Of a DNA stretch of 64,000 nt, positions 7,495 to 58,364 are shown piece after piece. The stretch comes from Tridacna crocea (Eukaryota; Mollusca; Bivalvia; Cardiida; Cardiidae), in assembly GCA_943736015.1 (NCBI GenBank), contig OX031056.1:64383277-64447276 (forward strand), written 5' to 3'. The stretch's first letter is position 1; the number at the start of each line of letters is the position of its first letter. Made by a program: the position numbers and the translations under genes. The notes under the pieces were generated by a model. That model saw only the letters and a program-made list of their open reading frames with translations. It searched no databases and was not told where the DNA came from.

Positions 7495-8893
7495 AGAATA
7501 ATTGTGTTGAAGTGTTTAGAGCTACAACATTGTTGCATGGCATTTTTGATTTCACGAATAGGACAAATATATTTACCGTCACCAGATGAAGTAGGTATTC
7601 TAAGTAAATTGTAGATACATAGATCTTTTTAAAGTAATTAATCTGCACTTTGCGAACAAAAATTCCGACACCTTTGCTATGATGTACGTTGCTACCCTTG
7701 CTATTGTAAATAGAGTTTGCTTTTTTACTTATTTTTTTTACCAGGTACACGTATGAATTCATGTCTATACTATCAGTTATTTCATTATATTTCTATCGCC
7801 TAATAGTGATGGATAACTGACTGATTGATCTAATTTGTCAATTATTCATTTATTTACCATCACTATGTATTAGAATATGTAAGCTTCCGTACATCTAAGC
7901 TTTCTTTCTTCTATGTAGTCCAATTTCAAATTTATGCTTACATTCTCATTCATTTCATAACATTTTCATTTAGTGATAATACGCAGCATTGATTGATAAA
8001 CCATATTGTGGCAATCGACGGACTGATTAGTCGCTCAATCGGACTGGTTGAGCGAGTGATTCGTCGACCGATTGGTGTATTAATTTCCTTAATCTTTATA
8101 TATGTCATTATGAGTTTTTCCCTCCACAAACTTATACTTTAATAACTGAAAATATCCATTTCATCTATTCACTAATTATTCTTCACTTATCTATAGCTTC
8201 ATTTTTGATCATTTGGAATTGTAAACACATGTAGCGAGAAATCGCGTGACTAAATACATTTAATTTGAAAATTTATATATTTATATAACTATAAACTTTG
8301 TAGTTTTTGTCAAAACAACGGTGTTCTGTTCTGTTCTGTTCATAAAAACCTATTTCGTCTAACAACCCGCTGTACCATGTAGAATAACGGTCTTTTGACA
8401 ATCAGAAAATCGACAAACAGCAAAAAGTGTCGACCCAGGTCAGTTTCAGCCTTTTCTCCCTTTACTACAATGTTTAAGAGAGCTTTAGTATTCGTTTATC
8501 AAACGCTAATTCGCTGTGAAAGTACATATTCAGATAAACACACAATACTATTTTAACAAATCTCTTTTTGTAAACTTGTTTAAGGCGCTGATGAGTCAAT
8601 CATTGGTTTCAATATACCCAGCGAACGCTGTGACTACACACCCTCCAAGGTGGCCTTGGTTGTGTAGCCACAAGCCTTTGAGCTCTATTGGTATAATATA
8701 TTTTCATAGGCCCATCATTTGACACAGTCACTAAATTTAGTACATTAAATCTTGTGCATCGCCCCTAAGTGCTATATAGAGTCAGAGATGCAAGTGTGCT
8801 ACTTTTATTAACGTTGTCCAATAACAGAGCAATGAACATTTTTGTGTCCTGTGAAGGACCAATAAAACTCAAGTGGCCTATATAAAAACTTAC
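7495..8893. other. Intron, no gene or clear element
   Basis: A+T-rich sequence directly downstream of host exon 5 in gene orientation. I see a short GTTCT tandem at 8318-8340 and GATT-type degenerate tracts at 7805-7860 and 8020-8075. A hairpin-MITE relic with the flanking CTTTTCTCCC and CTACAATGTTT lies near 8450-8475. No exon for the dimerisation helix or cyclase domain was recognised. Confidence 0.5.
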
Positions 8894-9071
8894 ATTCCCT
8901 GTCTCAGTGGTTGCAGAGCCTTGCTTATACCCCGGAAGTCAGGCCTTCGCTCGGGACTCTCGTGCCAACATGCTTCCATACAGTCGATGATGTAACATTC
9001 ACATGCCAAGGCTCTTGTATCTGGACGGAACGGCGGAAATGATCTCAACTCTCTAATACGATCTATAATAT
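8894..9071 (-). CDS. Receptor guanylate cyclase, end of kinase-homology domain, fifth visible exon
   Basis: A 178-nt exon, phase 1 in and phase 2 out, with acceptor TTTCAG (9072-9077) and donor GTAAGT from 8893. The split first codon gives Asp: DIIDRIRELRSFPPFRPDTR, then CMEACWHESPERRPDFRGI and KALQPLRQGM. The CWxExPExRPxF motif is the classical end of the kinase fold (helices H and I). In Gyc76C-type receptors the sequence after LxPLRxGM leads into the dimerisation helix and the cyclase domain. Those exons are not found in 1-8893, so the intron probably runs off the left edge. The upstream ATG of a longer open frame reaching 9231 is intronic and should not be used. Confidence 0.92.
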
Positions 9072-9488
9072 CTGAAATATTAAATCCTTTCAGTACAGCA
9101 GATAGACGAGTATTCAGGGTTTTTTTGTGGAAACTTTTTAAAGATATTGTGACAAAAGTATAAATTGCTTGTTGTTTTCCCTTTTGCCACAATATTTGGC
9201 TATTGGATATTGGTTCCTTTTGGTTTTTCATACGACAAGTAAAGTTGTTTCAAAGACTGATCTACATATCAATATCATCATTTGACCCTCAGTTGGGACC
9301 TTGTATCCTACATCTGTACGGGCAAATATTTCAAACAACACTCCTGCTTCCCATGGAGAAAAACTGTGCTGAATGAACTTGAAATTCATTCGTAAATAAG
9401 GAAGTAACGAATACGACGGCTGTCCCAAAATAGCGTGGACTCTTCTAATAAGATTGTTTATTATAACATTAGAGACAAACGCTCTTAA

Positions 9489-10177: not shown

Positions 10178-10742
10178 TCAGTCATTTTCGAAATACTGGC
10201 CGTGGCGATCGATGGTGCCGCACAACCCACTTGTCATACACGTTGGTAGACCAGCTGGTCTGTAATCCGCGAAACACTCTAATAAGCCTATGTCCCCGTA
10301 CCTGTGACGTCTGTTAAGGAAAGACGGCAAAAACTAGTGGGGCTAGGTCAGTGCTATAAGGGAAAGTAAGCAAACTAGGCACCCATCTTGCACAGACTCT
10401 AGACATGTTTATTGTCTCACGTAAAATCCTGTGAACAGATGACTCGCTAATTCCGACAGTTTCCGCAATCTCTCGCACAGCTATTCGCCGATCCCCTTCG
10501 ATGGCGTTCCTGACGCTGTCTACTATACGGCTGTCTATTTCTTTTGGTCTACCGGACTCCACACATTTTGCCTCTCTCCATCCTTCTGAAAATCTCTTTT
10601 GCCATTTGAATATGTGCAAGCGAGAAACAGATTTATACTTCTCCGTAGTTTGCAACAGTTTAAACGTCTATGTCGGTGTCATTTTTAGGGCAACACAAAA
10701 TTTTATCATATTTCGGTGTGCCATTTCCTTTGACGTCGACAT
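10178..10742 (-). pseudogene. mariner transposase remnant, internally deleted
   Basis: A start MSTSKEMAHRNMIKFCVALK lies at 10742 and is followed by a stop/frameshift near 10670. The next frame (to 10314) carries the N-terminal helix-turn-helix domain: VSRLHIFKWQKRFSEGW, SGRPKEID, VREIAETVGISESSVHRIL and MSRVCARWVPSLLTF. It then passes directly to PYSTDLAP, which in mariner transposases lies far downstream, near the third catalytic acidic residue. The segment with the first two catalytic Asp residues is thus deleted. A third frame ends DRHGQYFEND with a stop at 10178-10180, the usual mariner C-terminus. Not functional. Confidence 0.88.
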
Positions 10743-11154: not shown

Positions 11155-12580
11155 AACAAGAGGGCCAAGATGGCCCTGGATCGCTCACCTGAATTTTTGA
11201 GAGGACCAAAGCCTTTTTTTTTTTGAAGGTATTGAAACACTGGAAACAAAATCATTATTTTGCCAAGCAATTTTTAAAAAGGTCACCTGTAAAAATCCTT
11301 TCAAAATCTGACCAGCAGTTTCAGAAGAGAAGAATTTTTAGGAGTTTCTTAATTTCCGTACAGTGCAAGTAGCCCACATTCACCAGAGCCATGTTTCTTG
11401 ACCTATCAAAATTTCGCGAACACATTTTGAAAAAGGTCATTCAAAGAATATTTCCATGAAATAATTTTCAAATCTGACCAGCCGTTTCAGAGAAGAAGAA
11501 TTTTCAAGAAATTGTTCAATTCCATATAGTGCAAGTAGCCCCCATTCAGAACAATGTTTCTCAATGAATTAAACTTTCACAATTTTTGAAAAGGGTCATC
11601 CAAGGAGTATCTCCGTAAAAATTTTTCAAAATCTGACCAGCCGTTTCAGAGAAGAAGAATTTTTAAGAATTTCTTCATTGCCCTATAGTGCAAGTAGCCC
11701 CCATTCACCAGAGCCATGTTTCTTGACGAATCAAAATTTCACGAACAATTTTTGAAAAGGGTCACCCAAGGAACATCTCTGTGAAATTATTTCAAAATCT
11801 GACCTGCGGTTTCAGAGAAGAAGAATTTTTAAGAATTTCTTCATTTCCCTATAGCGCAAGTAGCCCCCATTCACCAGAGCCATGTTTCTTGACGGATCAA
11901 AATTTCACGAACACTTTTTGAAAAGGGTCATCCAAAGAATATCTCTGTTAAATTATTTCAAAATCGGACCAGCGATTTCAGAGAAGAAGAATTTTTAAGA
12001 ATTTCTTCATTTCTGTATAGTGCAAGAAGCTCCCATTCACCAGAGCAATGTTTCTTGAAGGATCAAAATTTCGCAAACAACCTTTGAAAAGGGTCACCCA
12101 AGGAATATCTCTGTGAAATTATTTTAAAATCTGGCCAGCGGTTTCAGAGGAGAAGAATTTTTAAGAATTCCTTCATTTCTGTATAGTGCAAGAAGCCCCC
12201 ATTCACCAGAACCATGTTTCTTGACGGATCAAAATTTCGCGAAATTTTGAAAAGGGTCACCGAAGGAACATCTCCGTGAATTTATTTTAAAATCTGGCCA
12301 GCGGTTTCAGAGAAGAAGATTTTTAAATAATTTCCTAAAAAATTCCATTTCGTTGCCATGGCAACCAGAGTTTTTGACGGAATCAAATTCTGTGAACAAT
12401 TTTTAAAGAGGACCTTTCAAGAAACATTCCAGCCAAGTTTGGTTCAAATTGGCCCAGCGGTTTAGGAGGAGTCGATGTTTAAAGAATTGTTGACGACGCA
12501 CGACGGACGACGCACGACGGATGACGGACACAGGGTGATCCTTAAAGCTCCCCTTGAGCACGTTGTGCTCAGGTAAGCTA
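11155..12580 (+). mobile_element. Tandem-core (pearl/Helitron-associated-like) element, copy 1
   Basis: It starts AACAAGAGGGCCAAGATGGC, then ATCGCTCACCTGAA, and ends GAGCACGTTGTGCTCAGG followed by TAAGCTAAAAA. The core is about seven diverged units of roughly 160-166 bp (landmark TCTGACCAGCSGTTTCAGAG). The 3' part carries a GACGACGCACGACGG microsatellite (12493-12535). A 3' hairpin, a tandem core and a 3-bp-unit satellite resemble the pearl/HINE elements of bivalves. No coding capacity. Four further relatives occur in this window. Confidence 0.8.
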
Positions 12581-21123: not shown

Positions 21124-21188
21124 AATGAGACAATCGAAACGTTGCAGTCCTTGTGTTTACATTATATAGGGGAGATATTTTTTTCATA

Positions 21189-21383
21189 TGTAACAGGTGG
21201 TGAAAAATATATCGCGGCTCGACCGGGATTCGAACCCAGGGCCTCAGGAATACCGTTCCTGCACTCTAACCAACTGAGCTACCGAACCACATATCGATAC
21301 GGCCGCTCGATATATCACCAAATACCTGTACCCGACTACATTATACCTTTGTATCTATCTATGGGATAGATCAGTATACTACA
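21189..21383 (-). repeat. TRIM LTR (3' LTR in element orientation)
   Basis: 195 bp, TGTAACAGG ... ATACTACA on the plus strand. It differs from the other LTR at the fifth base region (TAACAGG versus TATCAGG) and in CATATCGAT versus CATGTCGAT. Short flanks of the tRNA-like part are themselves inverted (GGTGATATATCG and CGATATATTTTTCACC on the minus strand). Confidence 0.88.
21216..21288 (-). promoter_or_regulatory. tRNA-like sequence / pol III promoter in TRIM LTR (first)
   Basis: Folds as a full cloverleaf on the minus strand: acceptor GGTTCGG/TCGAGCC, D arm GCTCAGTTGGTTAGAGT, anticodon stem CAGGA/TCCTG and T arm CTGGGTTCGAATCCCGG. The A box (TAGCTCAGTTGG) and B box (GGTTCGAATCC) are excellent. 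The anticodon loop ACGGTAT has C in place of U33 and would give GGT (Thr-like), so a true tRNA gene is unlikely. A T5 terminator follows at 21203-21207. Confidence 0.85.
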
Positions 21384-21461
21384 TACTTCCCCACCACATG
21401 AAGATTCGTCCACGAATCTCTCAATCACTACTACCCTATCTCTCTTAATAAGTGGGTTATT

Positions 21462-21475
21462 TACGTTGGGCGCCA
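21462..21475 (-). other. Primer-binding site for tRNA-Lys (TRIM)
   Basis: Minus strand TGGCGCCCAACGTA; the plus strand ACGTTGGGCGCCA equals the mature tRNA-Lys 3' end including CCA. It lies two bases from the 5' LTR edge, the normal distance. Confidence 0.9.
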
Positions 21476-21477
21476 AA

Positions 21478-21672
21478 TGTATCAGGTGGTGAAAAATATA
21501 TCGCGGCTCGACCGGGATTCGAACCCAGGGCCTCAGGAATACCGTTCCTGCACTCTAACCAACTGAGCTACCGAACCACATGTCGATACGGCCGCTCGAT
21601 ATATCACCAAATACCTGTACCCGACTACATTATACCTTTGTATCTATCTATGGGATAGATCAGTATACTACA
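21478..21672 (-). repeat. TRIM LTR (5' LTR in element orientation)
   Basis: Same 195-bp repeat at a spacing of 289 bp. In element orientation the LTR begins TGTAGTATACTGATC and ends CACCTGATACA, two bases before the primer-binding site. Confidence 0.88.
21505..21577 (-). promoter_or_regulatory. tRNA-like sequence / pol III promoter in TRIM LTR (second)
   Basis: Identical to the first copy across the cloverleaf. The T5 terminator is at 21492-21496, eight bases after the acceptor stem and inside the LTR. A pol III transcript from here would therefore end before the primer-binding site unless termination is bypassed. Confidence 0.85.
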
Positions 21673-21954
21673 CATATTTGATCATTTATTTTGGTTATAG
21701 AATGTCAAATTCCTGTGATATAGATGAAGAGCTTGATGACAGACAGTATCATGCAAAGGATATCTATCATAACTATCTTGCAGAAGATCCATAACTATTA
21801 TAAATACCATCTTCGATATCGTCATCAAGAGACTCGTTTTTGTGGATATGATTTAATAATAATGATCATCAACGACCAACCATTCGTATGCCTTGTAAGC
21901 GGCACACCTAAAAGTAACTATTAATATCTAATACTATGCTTTAAATATTGATCA

Positions 21955-23722: not shown

Positions 23723-24539
23723 TGTGTCGTTACATGAGTCAATTTTAGTGCGGAAGGGTCCGTGTAGTATACTGTTTCTAAAATCTGCTTTGGGGCTTTA
23801 GGACCCGTGTATTATACCTCTCTTCAGAAAAAAATGGTCCAGCCATGTTTGCTAGGAAGATTAGAAAATTTTTCATTCAAGACAAAACATAGGCCATTTT
23901 TGGTTCCCCCACAGAGTAAGTAATCAAAATCATTGTGTAAATGTCAAACTTTGGATTTATGAATTCTCAGTTTGTAATTCAAACTGGTTAGGTTAGAATT
24001 TAGTCATTTGTCACATTCGCATGGCAATTAGTCTAGAATAGAACATTTGCATAGTTCGTTAGAATCAATTTTTGGATTTGTTTCGCATGTAGTGTAGGCA
24101 TGGATCATCTTGCATAAGTATGCAACCTGATCCCAGTCTACACAACTTGCTTTTTACTCTATGTCTTTCAGGAATTTATTTTAGTATTCTTTTATATTGT
24201 GAATTCAGAAAATAGAATGGAATCTGTAGGAAAATATTAATAGAAAATATTAATAGAATTAGGAAAAGGTTTAATTTACCTTTTATTGTCATAAGTAACA
24301 TTGAAGACACATAGTATAGGCACATAGTAAATTTATAGACTGTGTTAGGCAGGTTTAAGGTAAAGGGAAAGCTGTACCTTATGGTCGCTGTTCCTTTTAC
24401 CACAATATTTTTAAGTTTTAAGAAATTAAGCTACAAATGGGTTTTTTTAATCTGTTTCAGCTTTCTACCTTCTCCAGAGGAAGTTTTGTAAATAGATCTA
24501 CTTTTAATAAAAGATATAAAACAATACAGAAACATTACA
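23723..24539 (+). repeat. BEL/Pao 5' LTR
   Basis: TG...CA ends. It differs from the 3' LTR at 23734-23740 (CATGAGT versus CACGAGG), by one A in a run near 23826, near 24098 (GGCATGG/GGTATGG), near 24158 (ACTCTAT/ACTATAT) and by one T near 24440. AATAAA at 24506-24511 is the likely poly-A signal. The 75-codon minus-strand frame inside is present in both LTRs and has no recognisable similarity. Confidence 0.95.
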
Positions 24540-24566
24540 GTAGAAAGTCTTGTATAAAAACCATTC
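24540..24566 (+). other. BEL/Pao leader, no canonical primer-binding site
   Basis: Only 27 bases separate the 5' LTR from the Gag-Pol ATG. They contain no TGG-starting tRNA complement. The first TGG (24568-24570) is inside the start codon context. Either the primer is a non-canonical or internal tRNA fragment, or the site overlaps the coding start. Confidence 0.6.
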
Positions 24567-27500
24567 ATGGAAACAGAAAGCAGTTCTAGAAGAGTTAGAA
24601 GTTTAACTCCAAAAGCTCAGGCTTTATATGATGAAAAGGTTGCCAGCTATAACTCTGGTTTGGCAACTATTAGGAAGCAACTGGAAGGATCATTGCCGCA
24701 CATTAACCAAAATGCACAGAATTATACTGTCTTAAAAGAAGTAAAGTTAATGTTAGAAGAAGGGATTCAAAAATACATGTCCTTATCCAATGAATTCAAA
24801 GGTTTTTTAGAACTAACATGTACAACAGACAGTACCTCAGAACTATGTGGTCATGAACTCATTAGAAAGTCATTGGAAGAGAAAATACAAATTTCCATTA
24901 ACAATATTGATGCATTAATCAAGAAGATTAGAGATAAGGAGCATATAGAACAACAAAACTCTCAGGATACAGATTCTACAGATTCTACTAGATCCATTAA
25001 GACAAATAAGAATTCTACATGTTCTAGTAGATCTAGTTCCAGCCGTAGATCAATTAATGAACTATTAGCCGTGAAAACCTCAAAGGTTGCAGCAGCAAAA
25101 GTGCGGTTGAAATTTATAGATCAAGAAGAAAAACTGAAACGCGAGTTGGCAATTCTTCAATGTAAAAGAGAAATTGATGAAGCAGAAGCCGAAGTTTCAG
25201 CGATCCAAGAGATTGTGGATAGTGACATAGGATCACAAAAGATTTCTATACCTGGTACCAACAAAAACGAAATGGTTAAGAAGTTTTTAGACTGTGATAA
25301 AGAAGATGGTAATTTAAAAGATCAAGATGAGATAGTGCCTTCTAGTGACAATAAATATGTTGGCCGAGGAAGAGTTACCTCCCCCTGCAGAGAACATTTG
25401 AAAAGAGATCTGTTTCTTAACAGTCTAACAGCATTTGATGACAGACCAGAAACTTTTATAAGCTGGAAGCTGAAGTTTAAACGTTTAATTGAAAAAATCG
25501 ACGCTAACGTCACAGAAGAACTGAACCTTTTGACAAAATGGTTAGGGCCAACATCAAAAAGGCAGGCCTTAAGCTTGCAGATAGCCAATGCCCATGATGA
25601 AAAAGAAGCAAAGCGTAAAATTTGGCAGAGATTAGAAGAAAGATACGGAGCTCCAGAGCTTATTACAGAATCATTTAGGTTAAGAATTGAGAAATTTCCT
25701 AAGTTAAGAGTGGAAGACTGTGATAAGCTTTTTGAGTTATCAGACTTACTCACCGAAGTTCTGTCAATAAGAGACAATGAAAGGTATAGGTCGGCCTTAG
25801 CTTATCTCGATTCTTCACATGGGATAAATTCAGTTCTTCAAAAATTACCCCCCTTTATGCAAAATAAATGGATTGACAGTGCAAGTAATTATAAAGTACA
25901 TTATGGTGTGATGTATCCACCATTCAGCTTCTTGGTTGAATTTATTGACAAAATGGCGTCTAGGATGAATGATCCAAGTTTTAAAATAGTAATCAAAAAG
26001 GAAACGGCTCCCACTGCAAAGCAAACATCAAAGTCAAGTCAGTCTCAAGCTTTTGTTAAAAAGACTGATGTTCAAAGTAATTTATCAGAAACAAAGGTCA
26101 AGTGTCAAATTCATGGTGAATCCTCTAAACACACATTAATGGATTGTCGTGCATTTCTAGAAATGTCATTAGAGGAAAAGAGGGGTTTCGTACAAAAAAG
26201 GGGACTTTGCTTTAAGTGTTTAGGTGGAAAACACTTAGCAAAACAATGCAAAGAAAATATCAAATGTTCGAAATGCGAAAGCAAAGGTCATTGTACTCCC
26301 TTTCATATTCAGGATGATTCTAATGGTGCGAAACAGCATGGCGGGGAAAGTAGCAGTTTATCACATGTAAGCTCTAAGTGTACTGAGGTATGTGGTAAAG
26401 GGTCATGGACAGGAAAGTCATGTGCCAAGACTCTATTGGTCAAGATTTATCCAAAGGGTAATTCAGAAAAGGCATTGAAAGCATATGCTATAATCGATGA
26501 ACAAAGTAACAAATCTCTGGCTAGGCCAGAATTACTAGAATATTTTCAGGACAAGTCAGAATCTGTAGAATACACGCTCTCATCATGCTCAGGGAAAATA
26601 TCAAAAACTGGGAGGCGTGCACAGGGGTTCGTTATAGAGTCTTTAGATAGGTCATGCAAGTTAAATTGCCCCCCTTTACTAGAGTGCAATGACATCCCAG
26701 ACACAAAACAAGAAGTAGCAACACCATCTGTTGCTAGACAGTTTAAACACCTGAGAAACATAGAACACTTAATACCAGAAATAGACTATAGTGCCAATAT
26801 ATTGGTCTTAATAGGCAGAGACTTGCTTAAGGCACATCATGTGTTAGATCAGAGGATAGGTGGAGAAAATGAACCTTATGCTCAAAGGTTAAGTTTAGGA
26901 TGGGTTATAATAGGAGAAGCCTGTTTAGGTCTTGTACACCAAACAAGTCATGTGAATGTTAATAAAACTAACATTCTTTATAATGGCCGAGAGTCAATTT
27001 TTGAGCCATGTCAGAACATATTTGAGGTCAATGACAGCATTTTCTGTAAAAGTGCTGATGACGATATGATTGGTCTTTCTCGTGAGGATAGACAGTTTCT
27101 CAAACAAATAGAATCAGAAATGTCAAAGTCGTCAACGGGTAAATTAAGTTGTCCACTTCCCTTACGTGATGCCAGGGAAACTCTTCCAAACAATTATAGC
27201 CATGCAAAGAAAAGGATTGGTAATTTGATAGCTAGTTTGAAGCGTGATCCTGTCAAGCAAACCCATTTTCTTGAATTCATGGAAAACATGTTGGTCAAAA
27301 ATCATGCTGAATTAGCCCCACCGGTGCAAGAAGGTCAAGAAATTTGGTATTTACCTATTTTTGGTGTCTACCATCCACAGAAGCCATCCAAAATAAGGGT
27401 TGTGTTTGATTCGTCAGCAAAATTCAAAAATGTATGTTTGAATGATGTCCTCCTAAAGGGTCTCGACTTGTCAAACAATTTAATTCGGGTACTTACTAAC

Positions 27501-30365
27501 TTTAGGAAAGAAAAGTTCGCTGCCATGGCTGATGTTGAACAAATGTTTTTCAACTTTGAAGTTGACGAAAAGCATCGTAATTTGTTACGTTTCTTGTGGT
27601 TCAAGGACAATAACCCTTCAAACCCTATTGTTGAGTATCGCATGAGGGTTCATGTCTTCGGGAACTCTCCGTCCCCAGCTATAGCGACATACGGACTGCG
27701 AAAAGCCGTTTGTCCTCAGTCACATGAGATTGATAATTTTAAGGACTGTGATGATGTTTGTCATTTCGTCAACAATAACTTCTATGTTGACGATGCTTTG
27801 GTTTCAAAACAAAGGGAAAAAGATTTGGTAGATCTTTTAACTCGCACACAATGTAGGTTACAGACTGGTGGGAAGATTCGTTTACACAAAATTGTGTCCA
27901 ATAGTTCAGTAGTTATGGAGAGCTTTCCAACAGGTGACTTGGCAAAGGATGTGGCTGAGATTGATTTTGGTTCAGACAAACCATACATCCAGAAAAGTTT
28001 AGGTCTATCTTGGGACATAGTCAATGACTGTTTCACATATCAGGTGCAGGTTAAGGAAAGGCCTTATACAAAAAGAGGTCTACTTTCAGTTATTAATGGG
28101 TTGTTTGATCCCCTTGGATTTGTGGCTCCGGTAGTTTTAGAAGGTCGGTTGATCTTCAAACAAGCAATTCACAACAGTGATTTAGACTGGGACGATCCTC
28201 TCCCATATAATGTTCTGAGCGATTGGGAAAAATGGGTTCAGTCACTTTCTCATTTGAAGACAATGAAAGTTTCCCGTTCATTTGTAGACTTACCATTCAG
28301 AGATAGTCCTGACAAAGAGCTACATGTCTTTTCAGACGCATCTAAAGAAGCAGTTGCAGCTGTTGCCTATCTTAGGGTGTATGATAAAAATAGAAAACCC
28401 CAATTAGGTTTTGTATTAGGTAAATCTAAATTAGCTCCACGGCATGGGCACACAATACCAAGGTTAGAATTATGTGCAGCTGTCTTAAGCACAGAGCTTG
28501 CAACATTTATTCAGAGACACCTAGATCTATCCGAACACTATTACAAAGACAGTGAAGTAGTTTTAGGATATATAAATAATACCACTAGGCGATTTTATGT
28601 CTATGTTGCAAACAGAGTGGACAAAATCCTTCGGTCATCACTGCCAAATCAATGGTACTATGTACCTACACATTTAAACCCAGCAGATCAGGGAACACGT
28701 CCCTTGAGAGCTCAGAAATTCAATGATTCGACATGGTTAATTGGTCCAAAATCATTTCTACAAGAACAAGAATGTGCAAGATTTAGGCATGATTTAGTAG
28801 ACCCTGATTCAGACAAAGAAATTTACCCAGTTGTTAAAGTGAGTAAGGTACAGATAAAGTCAAAAAGTCTTGGAACTTTTAGATTTGAAAGATTTTCTTC
28901 ATGGTCCAGACTAATACGCGCAATAGATTTGTTAAGACGCAGAGTCAGATACTTTCATAGGACTGTAGAAAAAGACTACTTATCAGAAAGTGAATCTAAA
29001 ACACTTACAGAAGTTTTCCTTCTGAAGGAAATTCAAAGAGAAATGTACTCTACAGAAATAGACTGTATTAAGAGTAAGAAACCAATCCCTAAGAATAGTA
29101 GTTTGAAAACATTAACACCAGTGTTAGACATGCAGGGTTTATTAAAGGTTAGTGGTAGACTTAGCAATGCATGTATGGAAACAGGGGAAAAAACTCCTAT
29201 CATTATACCGGGTAACAGTCATATAGCTACATTACTAGTTCGACACTTTCACGAGTTGGTCCAACATCAAGGCCGCCATTTTACCGAAGGATCAATTAGG
29301 TCAGCTGGTTACTGGTTAACTAGAGGAAAAAGACTCATAAACCAAGTAATTCATAAATGTCTAAAATGTCGAAAGCTCAGAGCACCTGTTAAATCTCAAA
29401 AGATGTCAGATTTACCAACTTGTAGGGTTACACCAAGCCCTCCAATCACCTATGTTGGTGTTGATACTTTTGGACCATGGTCGATTGTAACTAGAAGAAC
29501 AAGAGGAGGCGTTGCTAACTCTAAGAGATGGGCTATAATGTTTTCGTGTCTTAGTTCACGAGCAGTGCACATTGAAGTTGTTGAGGACATGAGCTCCTCG
29601 TATTTTGTCAATGCTATGCGTAGATTTATCGCTACACGCGGTCCAGTGAAAGAGTTTTATTCTGACCGTGGGACAAATTTTGTTGGAGCGGTCGCAGAGT
29701 TAGGAATGAATCAAGTGAATATTGAAGATGACAAAGTTAAAAGCTGTTTGAACAAACAAGGCGCAACATGGTTCTTTAACCCACCACACGCTTCACATAT
29801 GGGAGGGTCCTGGGAACGTATGATTGGCATAGCTCGTAGAATTTTGGATTCGATGTTGTGTAGTGTTAGTGCTAAGAGTTTATCACATGAAGTTTTGTGT
29901 ACGCTACTAGCTGAAGTAATGTGTATTATCAACAGCAGACCTATTACACCCGTGTCATCAGATCCAACTTCACCATTTGTACTTTCACCAAATTCTTTAC
30001 TTACACAAAAGATAAATTCCCAGATTGAACCTTTTCAAGGTTTAGACTTAAAAGATATGTACAAATCACAGTGGCGTCAAGTGCAGACATTAGCCAATCA
30101 GTTTTGGAAAGCTTGGAAAACTCAATATTTGCAAAGTCTACAATCCAGAAAGAAATGGAACAATGAACTTCCTAACTTGAAAGAGGGAGATGTTGTTTTA
30201 ATGATTGAAAATAGTTTACTGAGGATTCAGTGGCCTTTGGGAATCATTGACAAAGTTTTTCCAAGCTCAGATGAATTAGTGAGAAAAGTATCAGTGCGTG
30301 TTGTTAATGACGGAAAAACTGTGACATATACACGTCCAATTTCTCAATTGATTTATTTGCTATAA
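24567..30365 (+). CDS. gag-pol: BEL/Pao Gag-Pol polyprotein, 1932 aa, intact
   Basis: Domains in order (residue numbers approximate): N-terminal coiled-coil Gag with a Ser-rich stretch at ~150-165; DUF1759-type Gag block ~275-450; two zinc knuckles at 548-561 (CX2CX4HX4C) and 567-580 (CX2CX4HX4H); aspartic protease with DEQSN around Asp644; reverse transcriptase with ADVEQMF (Asp989) and YVDD (1073-1076); RNase H with SDAS (Asp1257); integrase zinc-binding motif (His1560 to Cys1598/Cys1601); integrase core Asp1633, Asp1700, Glu1750 (DDX49E); and a C-terminal DUF5641-type domain. All catalytic residues I can check are present and no stop or frameshift occurs. Gag and Pol are in one frame, as usual in BEL/Pao. 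The start is the first ATG after the LTR. It would make virus-like particles, copy the RNA and integrate the cDNA. Confidence 0.95.
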   Translation: METESSSRRVRSLTPKAQALYDEKVASYNSGLATIRKQLEGSLPHINQNAQNYTVLKEVKLMLEEGIQKYMSLSNEFKGFLELTCTTDSTSELCGHELIRKSLEEKIQISINNIDALIKKIRDKEHIEQQNSQDTDSTDSTRSIKTNKNSTCSSRSSSSRRSINELLAVKTSKVAAAKVRLKFIDQEEKLKRELAILQCKREIDEAEAEVSAIQEIVDSDIGSQKISIPGTNKNEMVKKFLDCDKEDGNLKDQDEIVPSSDNKYVGRGRVTSPCREHLKRDLFLNSLTAFDDRPETFISWKLKFKRLIEKIDANVTEELNLLTKWLGPTSKRQALSLQIANAHDEKEAKRKIWQRLEERYGAPELITESFRLRIEKFPKLRVEDCDKLFELSDLLTEVLSIRDNERYRSALAYLDSSHGINSVLQKLPPFMQNKWIDSASNYKVHYGVMYPPFSFLVEFIDKMASRMNDPSFKIVIKKETAPTAKQTSKSSQSQAFVKKTDVQSNLSETKVKCQIHGESSKHTLMDCRAFLEMSLEEKRGFVQKRGLCFKCLGGKHLAKQCKENIKCSKCESKGHCTPFHIQDDSNGAKQHGGESSSLSHVSSKCTEVCGKGSWTGKSCAKTLLVKIYPKGNSEKALKAYAIIDEQSNKSLARPELLEYFQDKSESVEYTLSSCSGKISKTGRRAQGFVIESLDRSCKLNCPPLLECNDIPDTKQEVATPSVARQFKHLRNIEHLIPEIDYSANILVLIGRDLLKAHHVLDQRIGGENEPYAQRLSLGWVIIGEACLGLVHQTSHVNVNKTNILYNGRESIFEPCQNIFEVNDSIFCKSADDDMIGLSREDRQFLKQIESEMSKSSTGKLSCPLPLRDARETLPNNYSHAKKRIGNLIASLKRDPVKQTHFLEFMENMLVKNHAELAPPVQEGQEIWYLPIFGVYHPQKPSKIRVVFDSSAKFKNVCLNDVLLKGLDLSNNLIRVLTNFRKEKFAAMADVEQMFFNFEVDEKHRNLLRFLWFKDNNPSNPIVEYRMRVHVFGNSPSPAIATYGLRKAVCPQSHEIDNFKDCDDVCHFVNNNFYVDDALVSKQREKDLVDLLTRTQCRLQTGGKIRLHKIVSNSSVVMESFPTGDLAKDVAEIDFGSDKPYIQKSLGLSWDIVNDCFTYQVQVKERPYTKRGLLSVINGLFDPLGFVAPVVLEGRLIFKQAIHNSDLDWDDPLPYNVLSDWEKWVQSLSHLKTMKVSRSFVDLPFRDSPDKELHVFSDASKEAVAAVAYLRVYDKNRKPQLGFVLGKSKLAPRHGHTIPRLELCAAVLSTELATFIQRHLDLSEHYYKDSEVVLGYINNTTRRFYVYVANRVDKILRSSLPNQWYYVPTHLNPADQGTRPLRAQKFNDSTWLIGPKSFLQEQECARFRHDLVDPDSDKEIYPVVKVSKVQIKSKSLGTFRFERFSSWSRLIRAIDLLRRRVRYFHRTVEKDYLSESESKTLTEVFLLKEIQREMYSTEIDCIKSKKPIPKNSSLKTLTPVLDMQGLLKVSGRLSNACMETGEKTPIIIPGNSHIATLLVRHFHELVQHQGRHFTEGSIRSAGYWLTRGKRLINQVIHKCLKCRKLRAPVKSQKMSDLPTCRVTPSPPITYVGVDTFGPWSIVTRRTRGGVANSKRWAIMFSCLSSRAVHIEVVEDMSSSYFVNAMRRFIATRGPVKEFYSDRGTNFVGAVAELGMNQVNIEDDKVKSCLNKQGATWFFNPPHASHMGGSWERMIGIARRILDSMLCSVSAKSLSHEVLCTLLAEVMCIINSRPITPVSSDPTSPFVLSPNSLLTQKINSQIEPFQGLDLKDMYKSQWRQVQTLANQFWKAWKTQYLQSLQSRKKWNNELPNLKEGDVVLMIENSLLRIQWPLGIIDKVFPSSDELVRKVSVRVVNDGKTVTYTRPISQLIYLL

Positions 30366-30714
30366 TTGCATTTTGCAAAAGAGTTTGGAAAAAGCATAGA
30401 ACATGGCATTAGAGCATAAATGAGCATTTAAAGATTTCTTGTTTAACATTGTCTCTTTGTAGATAGTTGCTTTATTTAGGCAATGGTCTGCATGGTACAA
30501 TGTTTTGCAGATGTATTTGCAGACTAGTTGTATATCTTCAAAGGTTGCGAGGTAATCATTTGAGCTCATGATGAGTTCAAATGTAAGCATCATTATCTTT
30601 GAAATTTGATCATGAATTTTATCTATTATAGGGTGGTTAATATCATAATTTAAGTTTATCACTTTCTGTCATTTAAGTTATTAGTGATTTTGATTTCCAA
30701 AATCAGACGGGGAA
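30366..30714 (+). other. BEL/Pao 3' untranslated region and polypurine tract
   Basis: No coding capacity on the plus strand. The AGACGGGGAA stretch ending at 30714 abuts the 3' LTR and is the candidate plus-strand primer; it is short and broken by one C. Confidence 0.7.
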
Positions 30715-31529
30715 TGTGTCGTTACACGAGGCAATTTTAGTGCGGAAGGGTCCGTGTAGTATACTGTTTCTAAAATCTGCTTTGGGGCTTTAGGACCCGT
30801 GTATTATACCTCTCTTCAGAAAAAATGGTCCAGCCATGTTTGCTAGGAAGATTAGAAAATTTTTCATTCAAGACAAAACATAGGCCATTTTTGGTTCCCC
30901 CACAGAGTAAGTAATCAAAATCATTGTGTAAATGTCAAACTTTGGATTTATGAATTCTCAGTTTGTAATTCAAACTGGTTAGGTTAGAATTTAGTCATTT
31001 GTCACATTCGCATGGCAATTAGTCTAGAATAGAACATTTGCATAGTTCGTTAGAATCAATTTTTGGATTTGTTTCGCATGTAGTGTAGGTATGGATCATC
31101 TTGCATAAGTATGCAACCTGATCCCAGTCTACACAACTTGCTTTTTACTATATGTCTTTCAGGAATTTATTTTAGTATTCTTTTATATTGTGAATTCAGA
31201 AAATAGAATGGAATCTGTAGGAAAATATTAATAGAAAATATTAATAGAATTAGGAAAAGGTTTAATTTACCTTTTATTGTCATAAGTAACATTGAAGACA
31301 CATAGTATAGGCACATAGTAAATTTATAGACTGTGTTAGGCAGGTTTAAGGTAAAGGGAAAGCTGTACCTTATGGTCGCTGTTCCTTTTACCACAATATT
31401 TTTAAGTTTTAAGAAATTAAGCTACAAATGGGTTTTTTAATCTGTTTCAGCTTTCTACCTTCTCCAGAGGAAGTTTTGTAAATAGATCTACTTTTAATAA
31501 AAGATATAAAACAATACAGAAACATTACA
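30715..31529 (+). repeat. BEL/Pao 3' LTR
   Basis: 815 bp, starting TGTGTCGTTACACGAG and ending AACATTACA; AATAAA at 31496-31501. Followed by the CTGTG duplication. Confidence 0.95.
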
Positions 31530-49484: not shown

Positions 49485-50286
49485 ACAGTAATTTATGAAC
49501 CTATATTTCTGGCTGCACATATTTATGCATTGTGAAATTGGATCATACCGTTTGATTCTTATACCTAAGGTAAGAAATGTTTCTGGGTTTCTAATGGCCT
49601 GTATCTATAAGGCGGCGAAGAAGGCCCTGTTTAATGTTTGAAACCAAATAACCTCTGTAAACGGTGCATATTTTAAAAAGGGATATTGTAATTTTGACGG
49701 TCGTTTTTTAGGAAATAATAACCATTCTCTATTCGATTCTTAGTCTTACTCTAGATTTAGAAGGCAAGGCAACTTCAGATCGGCTAAGCAATTTGTGTTA
49801 CTTTTATAATAAAAAATTCTTGAGAATTTTCATCATAAAGAAAGGCTTGTGAAGATGGACCAGGGGTCATATTCACCGACCGTTCTTGAAACTATTCTTA
49901 GTATTATTTTTCAAGATTTGCAAAGTTTGAAAATATAACAATTTCTGCTTGGCTAAACAATTTGGTTTAGGCAATCTGAAGTTGAGTTACTTTCAAATAT
50001 AGAAAATTCTGGAAAATAAGACAAAAAATGTTTTTAAGAATGGTTGGAGAAAATGAACCCTTGTCCTACCACGAAACTTATTATTTACCTACCGACAACG
50101 TTTAAATTGAAAACTTGAAAGCATTTGGTAACAAAAAAATAAATTTGGTTGAAATACTTGGACTTTTTTAAAAGAAAAGTTAGAAAATACTGGGTAAACA
50201 AAACGGCTGTTAAAGCTATCTCCATGTATCTGAGTCATTAAAACTCGGGGATATCTGTTGAATGTTATACTGCTTGAGCTACTCAC

Positions 50287-50391
50287 CAGTAAGCTCCCTT
50301 TTGAGCAATATTCTGTTACAATGATGAGTGAAGGTGGGTCTATACATGCCCCCAGAAACGTATTGATGTTTGTGTGTCGGAGGTCCCGCAT
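50287..50391 (-). CDS. Receptor guanylate cyclase, kinase-homology domain, first visible exon (partial gene)
   Basis: This 35-codon exon, phase 0 at both ends, lies between an AG acceptor (50392-50393) and a GTGAGT donor starting at 50286. It begins MRDLRHTNINTF and continues through GACIDPP to IIVTEYCSKGSLL. In membrane guanylate cyclases the same block is the helix C to beta-5/hinge part of the pseudokinase domain, which relays ATP and ligand state to the cyclase domain. It is the most upstream exon I can see. Exons for the ectodomain, membrane helix and glycine loop are missing from what I recognise between 50392 and 64000, so they lie outside or escaped me. The leading Met is internal to the protein, not a start codon. 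Membership of the family is firm; the exact orthologue is not. Confidence 0.9.
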
Positions 50392-50639
50392 CTGTAAACA
50401 ACAACAGGATAAGGGTTAACAACCTAATGGTACTCGCGTAACATCGACTTTCATCGTCAAATAAACGCAGGATTCGGCTAATACTCGGGTAGTCCGTAAT
50501 TGATCGATAGATGCTGGTTTCCCGGATCGTTTACGGGCTGCCCGAGACATAGACGAATCCGTACGATTTAGGCGATAGAAAGCGATATCAAACGAATCCC
50601 AAGGATTTGGGTTTAATTAGACTACACAATTTCAGATTG

Positions 50640-53403: not shown

Positions 53404-55699
53404 ACAAGAGGGCCATTGGCCCTGGAACGCTCACTTTAGACTATAGCTTATGAGTGAAATTCAATTCTTTGAGAACTTTGGTAAAGCTTCACCCAAGAAA
53501 CATCCCTGCCAAGTTGCATCAAGATTGGCCCAGTGGGTTAGGAGAAGAAGATGTTTAAAGAAATTGTTGACGGGCGACAGACGCCTGACATAGGGTTATC
53601 AAATATCAAAGCTCTACACCTTCCGGTTTCAAAGAAGAATTTTACATTTTCCTTCTTTGTCCTATGTTCGAACTTGTGGTCTCGGGGCTGGGTCAGTTTT
53701 AACCAAAGCAGCATCCTTGGAACAAACTTATTAGAGGTCCACTCAAAGATGCTACATACCAAGTATCTACATACCAAGTATCAAAGCTCTACACCTTCCC
53801 GTTTTAGAGAAAAAGAAATTTAACATTTTCCTTCTTTGTTCCTATGTTCCAACCTGTGACCTCCGGGGCATGGCCAGTTTTGATACCAGGGACATCATAT
53901 GACCAAACTTGGTAGAGGTCCACTAGAAGATTCTGCATACCAAATATCAAAGCTCTGCACCTTCAAGTTTCAGAGAAGATTTCTAAAGTTTTCCTTCTTT
54001 GTTGCTATTTTCAAACCTGTGACCTCCCGAGGCAGGGCCATTTTTGACCCAAAGGGCACAATATGAACAAATTGGTAGAGATCCACTAGGAATTGCTACA
54101 TGCAAAATATCATAGCGCTATGCCTTTTAGTTATAAAGAAGAAGAATTTTAAAATTTCTTTCATTGTTCCTATATTCGAACTTGTGACCTCCGGGACGGG
54201 GCCAGTTTTGACCCCATGGGTATTATTTAAACCAACTTGGTATTGGTCCACTAGGAGATGCCACACAACAAATATCAAAGCTCTACGCCATCTAGTTTCT
54301 GAGAAGGAAAGCTTTAAAGTTGTCGTTCTTTGTTCCTATGTTCAAACTAGTGACCCCCGCGATGGGGTCAGCTTTGACCCCAGGGACATCATTTGAATAA
54401 ACTTGGTAGAGGTCCACTAGGAAATACAACAGACCAAATATCAACGCTCTATGCTCTCTAGTATCTGAGGAAAAGAATTTTAAAGTTTTCCTTCTTTGTT
54501 CCTATCCACAAATTTGTGATCCCCGGGGTGGGGCCAGTTTTGACCCCAGGGGCGTAATTTGAACAAACTTGGTAGAGGTCTACTAGGAGATGCCACATAC
54601 CAAATATCAAAGCTCTACGGGTGGCGGTATGGCTTTACCATGTGGCGGGATGTACTTCCACCAGTATCGATCTTGGTTGTAAAGTAGTTCAAATTTTTAA
54701 CTTAGCTTGTTTGCACAGTAACACTGTGGGTCTTTGTCACAAGGGCTCACTTGTTGCTATCTAATTATTTGTAAGATACTGAGAGGGGCTGTGGCCAGAT
54801 TTCGCCAATCAAAGATTTAATTCTTTTGCTCTGAATTGCTTTGAAATGACTTGTCAAATAATATTAGTAAATTACCTAAGTGTTTAATTAGTTTGTGTTT
54901 GTCCTCTATAACAAAGCTCTACTCCTTCAAGTTTCAGAGGAGAAAATTTTTCAAGTTTTCCTTCTTTGTTCCTATGCTCAAACTTGTGACCCCCGGGATG
55001 GGGCCAGTTTTTACCCCAGAGACATAATTTGAACAAACTTAGTAGAGGTCCACTAGGAGATGTCACATACTAAATATCAAAGCTCTACGCCTTCAAGTTT
55101 CAGAGGAGAAGATTTTTAAAGTTTTCCTTCTTTGTTCCTATGCTCAAACTTGTGATCCCTGGGGTGGGGCCAGTTTTGACCCCAGGGATATAATTTGAAC
55201 AAACTTGGTAGAGGTCCACTAGGAGATGCCACATACCAAATATCAAAGCTCTACGCCTTCAAGTTTCAGAGGAGAAGATTTTTAAAGTTTTCCTTCTTTG
55301 TTCCTGTGCTCAAAAGCGCTCAAACGCGTTATCCCGCGGGGCGGGGCCAGTTTTTATCCTAGGGGCATAATTTGAATAAACTTGGTAAAGGTCCATTGGG
55401 AGATGCTACATACCAAATATCAAAGCTCTACCCCTTCTAGTTTCAGAGGAGAAGATTTTCAAAGATTTCGTTTTTTTTTCGTTTTGTTGCCATAGCAACC
55501 AGAGTTATGGGTGGAATTGAATTATCTGAACAATTTCGGTAGAGCTTCACCCAAGGAATTTTCCTGTTAAGTTTCAAAAAGATTGGCCCAGTGGTTTAGG
55601 AGGAGAAGATGTTTAAAGAAATTGTTGACGGACGACGGACGCCGGACATTGGGCGATCACAATAGCTCACCTTTAGCACTTTGTGCTAAGGTGAGCTAA
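53404..55699 (+). mobile_element. Tandem-core element, copy 4
   Basis: Starts AACAAGAGGGCCATTGGCCC, then CGCTCACTTTAGAC, and ends TTAGCACTTTGTGCTAAGG followed by TGAGCTAA. The core is about 12 units of ~160-166 bp (landmarks AAATATCAAAGCTCTACGCC, TTGGTAGAGGTCCACTAGG). It is interrupted near 54615-54905 by non-repeat sequence. Contains GACGGACGACGGACGCC near the 3' end. Confidence 0.82.
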
Positions 55700-56170: not shown

Positions 56171-58364
56171 AACAAGAGGACCATGATGGTCCTATATCGC
56201 TCACCTGAGTACCAAGCAGCAAAGGTCTACAATAAAGATAAATACCAAATATCAAGGTTCAAGGCTAAATGATAATGAAACAAGAGCAGCAATTTGTCGC
56301 AATTTGACTTGAGACTTTGAAGTTCCATGTCAGACAAGCAAGAAATACTGTAAGAATGAAGATCAATGTGGAATTACATAAAGTTCGCACTAGGTAGAGT
56401 TATTGTTCTTGCGCATTGTACTCTGTAATACTGCAACAAACATGCATACCAAGTTTGAAGTCGTTTTGACTTGAGATGAGGCACTAAATGCTGTAAAAAT
56501 GACATTCAAAGGGAAATAACTCAAAGACAGCACAAATTAGCGTTACAATTCTTGTGCACTGCACTTCCAAATATTGCACCAAATAATCATACCCAATTTC
56601 AAGTCATTCCTACTTAAGATGACAAAGTTTTGCTCCGGACAAGCAAGAAATGCTATGAAATGAAGTTCAAAGGGGAAATAACTCAAAATTCAAGCTAGAA
56701 GAAGTTATGGTTCTTGTGCACTGCACTCCATAAATATACAACGATCATGCATATCAAATTTGAAGATGTTTAGGCTATAGATGACAAAGTTATATTCCAG
56801 ACGAGCAGAAAATGCTGTAAAAATGACAATCAAAGGGAAATAACTTACAGACAGTATAAGGTAGAGTTATGGATTTTTCAGATTGCACTCTGCATTATTG
56901 CAACAAACACAAATGTCAAGTTTCAAGTCAATCAGACTGGAGATGACAAAGTTATGCTCTGGATTAAGAACTATTATAAAGAACTTTTTAATTCAAGGGC
57001 AAATAACTCCAGTTGTTTGTGTCCGATTACACCCATAATTCAACTCGTCCAAGATCTTATGGTTATATATATTTTGGCCAAGTTTACAGCTGATTGGTTA
57101 AAAATTGTAGATGCTAGAGTGTAAACAAAGTGCAGTATATCAATTTTTCTAATTCAAGGGCAAATAACTCCAGTCATTCTGGTCAGATTAGACCCATAAT
57201 CAAACTCATCCGAGATCTTATGGTCATATATACTTTGACCAAGTTTGGTCCTGATTGGTTGATATTTGTAGATGCTAGAGGGTAAACAAAGTGAAATACA
57301 GCAATTTTTCTAATTCAAGGGCAAATAACTCCAGATGTTCTGGTCCGATAAGACCCAAGATCGAACTCATCCGAGATCTTATGGTCATATATACTTTGAC
57401 CAAGTTTGGTCCTGATTGGTTGATATTTGTAGATGCTAGAGTGTAAACAAAGTGAAATACAGCAATTTTTCTAATTCAAGGGCAAATAACTCCAGATGTT
57501 CTGGTCCGATTAGACCTAAAATCGAACTCATCCGAGATCTTATGATCATATATACTTTGACCAAGTTTGGTGCTGATTGGTTGATATTTGTAGATGCTAG
57601 AGTGTAAACAAAGTGAAATACAGCAATTTTTCTGATTCAAGGGCAAATAACTCCAGACGTTCTGGTCCGATTTGACCCAAAATCGAACTCATCCGTGATC
57701 TTATGGTCATATATACTTTGACCAAGTTTGGTGCTGATTGGTTGATATTTGTAGATGCTAGAGTGTAAACAAAGTGAAATACAGCAATTTTTCTAATTCA
57801 AGGACAAATAACTCCAGACGTTCTGGTCCGATTAGACCCAAAATCGAACTCATCCGAGATCTTATGGTCATATATACTTTAAAAAAAGTTTGGTGTTGAT
57901 TGGTTGATATTTGTAGATGCTAGAGTGTAAACAAAGTGAAATACAGCAATTTTTCTAATTCAAGGGCAAATAACTCCAGATGTTCTGGTCCGATAAGACC
58001 CAAAATCGAACTCATCCGAGATCTTATGGTCATATATACTTTGACCAAGTTTGGTGCTGATTGGTTGATATTTGTAGATGCTAGAGTGTAAACAAAGTGA
58101 AATACAGCAATTTTTCTAATTCAAGGGCAAGTAACTCCAGATGTTCTGGTCCGATAAGACCCAAAATCGAACTCATCCGAGATCTTATGGTCATATATAT
58201 TTTGACCAAGTTTGGTCCTGATTGGTTGATATTTGTAGATGCTAGAGTGTAAACAAGAAAATGTGAACGGACGGACGCCGGACGGACGGACGGACGACGG
58301 ACGCCGACGGACGGTGAGTGATCACAATAGCTCACTCTGAGCACTTCGTGCTCAGGTGAGCTAA
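56171..58364 (+). mobile_element. Tandem-core element, copy 5
   Basis: Starts AACAAGAGGACCATGATGGT, then CGCTCACCTGAG, and ends TGAGCACTTCGTGCTCAGG followed by TGAGCTAATAA. From ~57000 to 58255 it holds seven to eight closely matching 161-bp units (landmark TAGATGCTAGAGTGTAAACA), then GGACGGACGCC satellite (58266-58314). The left half has older, diverged units around GGGAAATAACTCAAAGACAG. The uniformity of the right units points to recent array expansion. Confidence 0.85.

Follow-up and report, generated by a model that had tools for sequence, protein, structure and literature searches.

How could an LTR element be transcribed in full if each of its LTRs carries a pol III promoter followed by a terminator, the first of them ahead of the primer-binding site? 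The question is raised by a 484-bp TRIM that runs on the minus strand, from 21672 to 21189, of the window (the whole stretch of 64,000 nucleotides analysed here). A first-pass annotation had described a TRIM that resembles Cassandra and bears a tRNA unit in its LTRs, a description that the anatomy and the genomic copies support. It had also pointed to a puzzle, since a pol III transcript of about 90 nt would miss the primer-binding site. The computational analysis reported below suggests that the element is probably a Helenus-type LTR retrotransposon, non-autonomous and active in recent times, in which each LTR holds a tRNA-derived internal pol III promoter and the R region consists of the tRNA-like unit together with a run of five T residues (T5).

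Anatomy of the element

The element is organised as LTR, interior and LTR, with the following parts.

21478..21672, minus strand: 5′ LTR, TGTAG...GATACA, 195 bp; the higher-coordinate copy, since the element runs on the minus strand
21384..21477, minus strand: interior, 94 bp
21189..21383, minus strand: 3′ LTR, 195 bp
21673..21676 and 21185..21188, no strand assigned: target site duplication (TSD) of 4 bp flanking the element, CATA on the plus strand
21463..21475, minus strand: primer-binding site (PBS) TGGCGCCCAACGT, a 13-nt match to tRNA-Lys that begins 2 nt past the 5′ LTR
21386..21392, minus strand: purine tract GGGGAAG, then TA; short, 2 nt ahead of the 3′ LTR

The two LTRs, which both open with TG and close with CA, show 2 differences over 195 positions. 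The coordinates and anatomy first proposed, with two 195-bp TG...CA LTRs, a CATA duplication and a 94-bp interior, hold, as does the purine tract at the far end of the interior, short as it is. The primer site and its 2-nt spacing from the 5′ LTR also stand; its match, given earlier as 13-14 bp, extends over 13 nt and not 14. The sequence that we take to be the 3′ end of tRNA-Lys underlies the assignment of TGGCGCCCAACGT. No ORF of at least 100 amino acids overlaps the 484-bp element, and a blastn search of the element against the window gave no further copy within the 64,000 nt. With assumed rates of 5e-9 to 1e-9 per site per year, the age of the window copy would be 1 to 5 million years.

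Each LTR contains a tRNA-like unit followed by a T5 tract.

21505..21577, minus strand: tRNA-like unit of the 5′ LTR, 73 nt (A box 21559-21570, B box 21515-21525)
21216..21288, minus strand: tRNA-like unit of the 3′ LTR (A box 21270-21281, B box 21226-21236)
21492..21496, minus strand: T5 tract of the 5′ LTR, pol III terminator-like
21203..21207, minus strand: T5 tract of the 3′ LTR, where the genomic RNA would end

ARAGORN and Rfam both identify one tRNA per LTR, on the element's own strand and at LTR positions 96-168, and neither reports any other tRNA in the window. The unit scores 54.8 bits in Rfam, where 29 is the gathering score. Both promoter boxes, A (TAGCTCAGTTGG) and B (GGTTCGAATCC), agree with the consensus, and the acceptor, anticodon and T stems are all pairable. 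The 73-nt cloverleaf with A and B boxes noticed in each LTR at first reading is confirmed by these calls and by the consensus boxes. The anticodon is GGT and position 33 is C. A threonine tRNA with a GGT anticodon and C33 are not known to be in normal use in animals, and we regard both features as a sign of a non-working tRNA. The T5 tract, at LTR positions 177-181, starts 8 nt past the tRNA-like unit and lies 14 bp ahead of the LTR end; it does fall before the LTR edge, as had been described. Self-priming by the tRNA-like unit was ruled out, as only 5 contiguous nt match. In the available part of the paper by Kojima, self-priming by an LTR tRNA is likewise dismissed for Helenus in general (PMC10886601). 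LTRs of this kind are also a source of tRNA gene calls that are probably spurious, and the two made in this window both fall in the element.

Copies across the genome

The 484-bp sequence was used as query in a search of the whole genome (1.05 Gb in 31 contigs), and 40 of 999 first-look candidates were scored. At least 42 near-full-length matches, 93-100% identical to the query, were found at 40 loci. The analysed sample consists of these 40 fetched loci (L024-L063, L024 being the window copy) and gives 82 LTRs and 42 interiors; as the query was the full element, the sampled copies all hold at least LTR-interior-LTR. Single LTR-interior-LTR units occupy 38 of the 40 loci, and the other two carry tandems of three LTRs and two interiors. 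The tandem copies extend over positions 401-1171 of L047 and 401-1174 of L049, each with one matching pair of 4-bp TSDs.

Exact 4-bp TSDs are present at 34 of the 40 loci, both tandems included. They are missing at L029, L037, L056, L058, L060 and L063, among which L056 and L063 match at 3 of 4 bases. Neither of the contrary outcomes named beforehand, long arrays without TSDs or PBS, or copies with unconserved TSD and PBS, was encountered among the fetched copies, where single units and exact TSDs prevail and the PBS TGGCGCCCAACGT is exact in 34 of the 42 interiors. When the first and last LTRs of each locus were compared, the median divergence was 1.8% and the two were identical at 6 of the 40 loci, which points to recent activity of the family. 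The 100-bp flanks of the fetched loci have a mean GC content of 33.6% (sd 3.8%) as compared to 37.6% for the window; a mild preference for AT-rich targets is possible, flanks having been compared with the window only.

Conservation among the copies

All copies compared here were picked as top hits of a single query, so that shared ancestry and this selection both inflate the conservation seen in the counts that follow. The A box consensus is found in 74 of the 82 LTRs and the B box in 75. GGGGAAG occurs near the end of the interior in 34 of the 42 interiors. In the 40 nt that close the LTR, 79 of the 82 LTRs have a run of at least four T residues and 76 a run of at least five; the longer run is found in 35 of the 40 first LTRs and, where the B box is exact, in 69 of 75 LTRs. 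Finding a T5 in a 20-nt stretch is not in itself unusual (725 of the 12796 minus-strand 20-mers of the window), and retention in 76 of 82 LTRs is stronger evidence than such an occurrence alone, though the copies are closely related. The three stems of the tRNA-like unit are paired in 555 of 574 cells (acceptor), 400 of 410 (anticodon) and 397 of 410 (T). The GGT anticodon and C33 are each seen in 74 of the 82 LTRs; in this the unit departs from a cellular tRNA gene, for which U33 and an anticodon in animal use are expected.

Over the 82 LTRs, the mean diversity per site amounts to 0.063 in U3, 0.138 at positions 169-176 and 0.033 in T5; within the tRNA-like unit it is 0.018 for the A box, 0.043 for the B box and 0.049 for the remainder. 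With one (first) LTR per locus, the values become 0.020 for the A box, 0.061 for the B box, 0.058 for T5 and 0.066 for U3. The A box therefore stands out as a low-diversity segment; the B box does not. Because the per-locus diversities of the B box and of T5 are hardly under that of U3, retention of these two motifs is weak as proof of function.

A further motif was noticed in U3.

21597..21608, minus strand: GGTGATATATCG, 5′ LTR copy, TATA-like, 20-31 bp upstream of the tRNA-like unit
21308..21319, minus strand: GGTGATATATCG, second copy, in the 3′ LTR

This motif (LTR positions 65-76) varies less than any other 12-mer of U3, ranking 1 of 84, and is exact in 73 of the 82 LTRs. The polyadenylation-type hexamers AATAAA and ATTAAA were searched for as well, and neither occurs in any of the 82 LTRs or 42 interiors. 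Because both are absent, T5 is the sole recognised 3′-end signal. The start and stop signals recognised in the LTR are the internal pol III promoter, the TATA-like motif and T5.

Comparison with known TRIM families

TRIMs with tRNA-derived LTRs were named Helenus by Kojima in 2024 (PMC10886601). According to the available part of that paper, their hosts are fungi, animals and a single plant (Selaginella), and 51 of the families come from pteriomorphian bivalves. The TSD of animal Helenus is 4 bp long, the primers of bivalve families include tRNA-Lys, seven bivalve families can encode tRNA-Thr, and insertion of a SINE is the proposed origin (PMC10886601). The element studied here has the same general features: a TRIM below 1000 bp (484 bp) with two LTRs and no protein, a tRNA-like sequence with A and B boxes in each LTR, and a PBS and a polypurine tract (PPT) at the edges of the interior, each exact in 34 of 42 interiors. 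It shares the 4-bp TSD (34 of 40 loci) with animal Helenus and the tRNA-Lys primer site with bivalve Helenus, where some families also have tRNA-Thr calls; tandem arrays are described, in the same part of the paper, for Helenus LTR-11_DR (PMC10886601). Each defining feature examined fits, and the element belongs to the Helenus type. A tRNA-bearing TRIM in an animal, as put forward at first reading, is a type already published as Helenus in 2024. Set beside the 51 bivalve families by description, the present element is a new Helenus example or possibly a family already listed.

In a term search of the main text of the Helenus paper, terminators were named for Cassandra only (PMC10886601). The reading of the R region proposed below may be unstated in print for Helenus, on the basis of that main text alone. 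Our literature searches led to no other work on tRNA-bearing bivalve TRIMs that we recognised among the matches listed, and no TRIM was found in the available part of a paper on bivalve transposons (PMC10294476).

Cassandra offers a comparison for the reading of R. Its RNA starts in the 5S unit of the 5′ LTR, stops in the one of the 3′ LTR and so has 18 bp repeated at its termini, as reported in the available text of PMC10886601. Like Cassandra, the element has a TRIM layout, a pol III promoter and terminator in each LTR (here predicted) and tandem LTR-interior-LTR arrays. In contrast to Cassandra, it is tRNA-derived and not 5S-derived, the only two Rfam matches at gathering score in the window being tRNAs, and its R repeat would measure about 86 nt as compared to 18 bp (PMC10886601). 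Ajax, a nemertean TRIM with a partial 5S sequence, also has an LTR with a presumed pol III promoter and falls under the same TRIMp3 concept. According to the same source, however, Ajax is 5S-derived, with a 5-bp TSD and a tRNA-Leu primer site (PMC10886601), where the present element is tRNA-derived with a 4-bp TSD and a tRNA-Lys site.

The biv-TRIM element (Satovic 2019, PMC6934838) is likewise a small bivalve LTR element for which tandem TDRx_I(x-1) arrays are known. It differs by its TDRs of 202-218 bp and interior of 77-80 bp, as compared to 195 and 94 bp here. In the available part of the paper, its PPT is GGGGAGA, no unambiguous PBS is reported and a tRNA-like unit is unmentioned (PMC6934838), whereas our element has GGGGAAG, a tRNA-Lys PBS and a tRNA-like unit. 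The biv-TRIM segment TGATCCCAAAGGAC is absent from both strands of the element and from all 42 interiors.

A proposed transcription cycle

The RNA of an LTR element starts and ends inside the LTRs, with a common R sequence at both ends. In the cycle that we propose, pol III would initiate transcription in the 5′ LTR, at its tRNA-like unit. The majority of the RNAs would end at the first T5 after about 86 nt, and a minority would read through it, spanning the PBS, the interior and U3 before ending at the T5 of the 3′ LTR, for a length of about 375 nt. These lengths, 86 nt for the short RNA and 375 nt for the read-through RNA, were computed for a start at the first base of the unit and an end at T5. 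The two ends of the genomic RNA would then share an 86-nt repeat, so that the tRNA-like unit and T5 would constitute the R region and would serve strand transfer after priming by tRNA-Lys. In such a cycle the role of the tRNA-like unit would be that of promoter and R, not that of a working tRNA. Reverse transcriptase and integrase would presumably be supplied in trans by an LTR retrotransposon, most likely of the Gypsy group by analogy with animal Helenus.

A terminator ahead of the PBS is to be expected under this proposal because T5 marks the end of R, provided that it is leaky in the 5′ LTR. The puzzle of an RNA of about 90 nt that misses the PBS would be eased if the unit and T5 make up R, by analogy with what the available text of PMC10886601 describes for Cassandra; a short product is still predicted. 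In yeast in vitro, T6 suffices alone for full release by pol III whereas T4 is weak, according to the available part of PMC9278858. Neither T5 nor molluscs are dealt with in that part. T5 may terminate efficiently, in which case full-length RNA would be rare. More tentatively, with somewhat less confidence than doubt, we suggest that the whole tRNA-like gene through T5 acts as an R of the retroviral type, where a leaky T5, passed in the 5′ LTR and used in the 3′ LTR, would replace the skipped 5′ poly(A) site and GGTGATATATCG would tune the process, either as a TATA-like TFIIIB site or as a hairpin arm found in the RNA of the 3′ LTR only. GGTGATATATCG might just as well be a TATA element for pol II. 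Pol III transcription of Helenus is unvalidated by its author's own statement in the available text (PMC10886601), and a young multi-copy family is a test case for the proposed pol III cycle of tRNA-bearing TRIMs.

Alternative readings

Transcription by pol II would leave the tRNA-like unit as an R/U5 structure or a SINE relic, with RNA made by read-through from host genes or else driven by an LTR promoter, for which the TATA-like GATATATC, some 25 bp ahead of the unit, would be the candidate. The position of GGTGATATATCG, the least variable U3 12-mer, is that expected of a TATA box that would start RNA near the unit, the diversity of the B box comes close to that of U3 when one LTR is taken per locus, and tandem Cassandra transcripts are known from mRNA, according to the available literature text. 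Against this, AATAAA and ATTAAA are found in none of the 82 LTRs, the A box (0.018) is less diverse than the rest of the unit (0.049) and U3 (0.063), though the B box (0.043) is unremarkable, and a T run of at least five is retained in 76 of 82 LTRs. We consider pol II transcription unlikely, while giving it appreciable weight. A different role for T5 would follow if an extended stem, formed between LTR positions 65-82 and 166-185 in the RNA of the 3′ LTR only, boosted termination there and left T5 leaky in the 5′ LTR. The 121-nt fold indeed beats 199 of 200 shuffles for the 5′ LTR (z -2.88) and 195 of 200 for the 3′ LTR (z -2.26), one of the arms includes the conserved 65-76 segment, and in yeast in vitro a hairpin at most 7 nt from T4 improves release by pol III (PMC9278858, available part). 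However, shuffling reaches the arm-to-arm pairing in 516 of 5000 cases and background windows of the same geometry do so in 156 of 3194, none of the 16 pairs shows a pairing-preserving change on both sides, 35 of the 82 LTRs have an alignment gap opposite position 70, and the acceptor stem of the tRNA itself lies near T5 in both LTRs. Such a stem seems improbable to us, and GGTGATATATCG is no less plausibly a TATA-like motif, serving TFIIIB or pol II, than a hairpin arm.

The RNA of about 86 nt might also be the main product, the LTRs being dispersed tRNA-like genes that act in the cell and the retrotransposon a mere carrier. T runs of at least five in the last 40 nt of 76 LTRs would suit this view, as would the paired acceptor, anticodon and T stems (555/574, 400/410 and 397/410). 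But C33 and GGT, each in 74 of 82 LTRs, do not, and a single double change across the three stems indicates that the pairing mostly reflects recent common descent. In the available text on Helenus, the isotype calls disagree in many families and function is deemed unlikely, yet seven bivalve families pass as tRNA-Thr (PMC10886601). We judge this reading slightly less probable still than the extended stem. Finally, what looks like a TRIM might be a tandem array or two tRNA-derived SINEs joined as a dimer, and three-LTR tandems do exist at 2 of the 40 loci. Exact 4-bp TSDs at the element ends at 34 of 40 loci, single units at 38, the placement of the PBS and purine tract at the interior edges and the matching TSDs of both tandems refute it for the fetched copies, and we give it practically no credence. 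A pol III cycle with the tRNA-like unit and T5 as R is the reading that we prefer.

Searches for relatives and other features of the window

An exact LTR-PBS pattern gave no match in viral contigs, and an LTR tail pattern gave none in GTDB genome contigs. The combination of B box, T4 and PBS was found in 0 viral contigs and 0 genome contigs. A looser pattern of B box and PBS occurred in 15 viral contigs and was set aside as chance, since 0 of the 15 had an LTR-length match. The best of them was a 56-bp match at 79%, inside a called tRNA of contig L001, and L001 was the only one of the 15 in which upstream 16-mers recurred downstream (5 of them). As regards an autonomous partner, the exact TGGCGCCCAACGTAAAT (PBS plus flank) was absent from viral contigs. 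The Bel-like element of the window was rejected as a partner, being without the TGGCGCCC site and having a 5-bp TSD.

This latter element, at 23723-31529 on the plus strand, is a young LTR retrotransposon with LTRs of about 817 bp that are 99.3% identical, flanked on both sides by CTGTG (5-bp TSD), and with a long open frame at 24558-30365. The piece 27000-28000 gives a weak RVT_1 match (E 3.2e-5, 24.2 bits), under the Pfam cut-off. We take the element to be of the Bel/Pao type.

On the minus strand, the stop-to-stop frames 8890-9249 and 50089-50415 contain pieces of a kinase domain (PF07714), the first under the Pfam curated cut-off. They are perhaps exons of one minus-strand gene, in which case the TRIM would be intronic. 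A helix-turn-helix fragment is found at 10314-10667 on the same strand, with HTH_24 over the cut-off; it is perhaps a transposase remnant. Tandem arrays with periods of mostly about 161-166 bp are located at 11299-12334, 53600-55480 and 56985-58256, the last of which is 94% matched over 7.9 copies.
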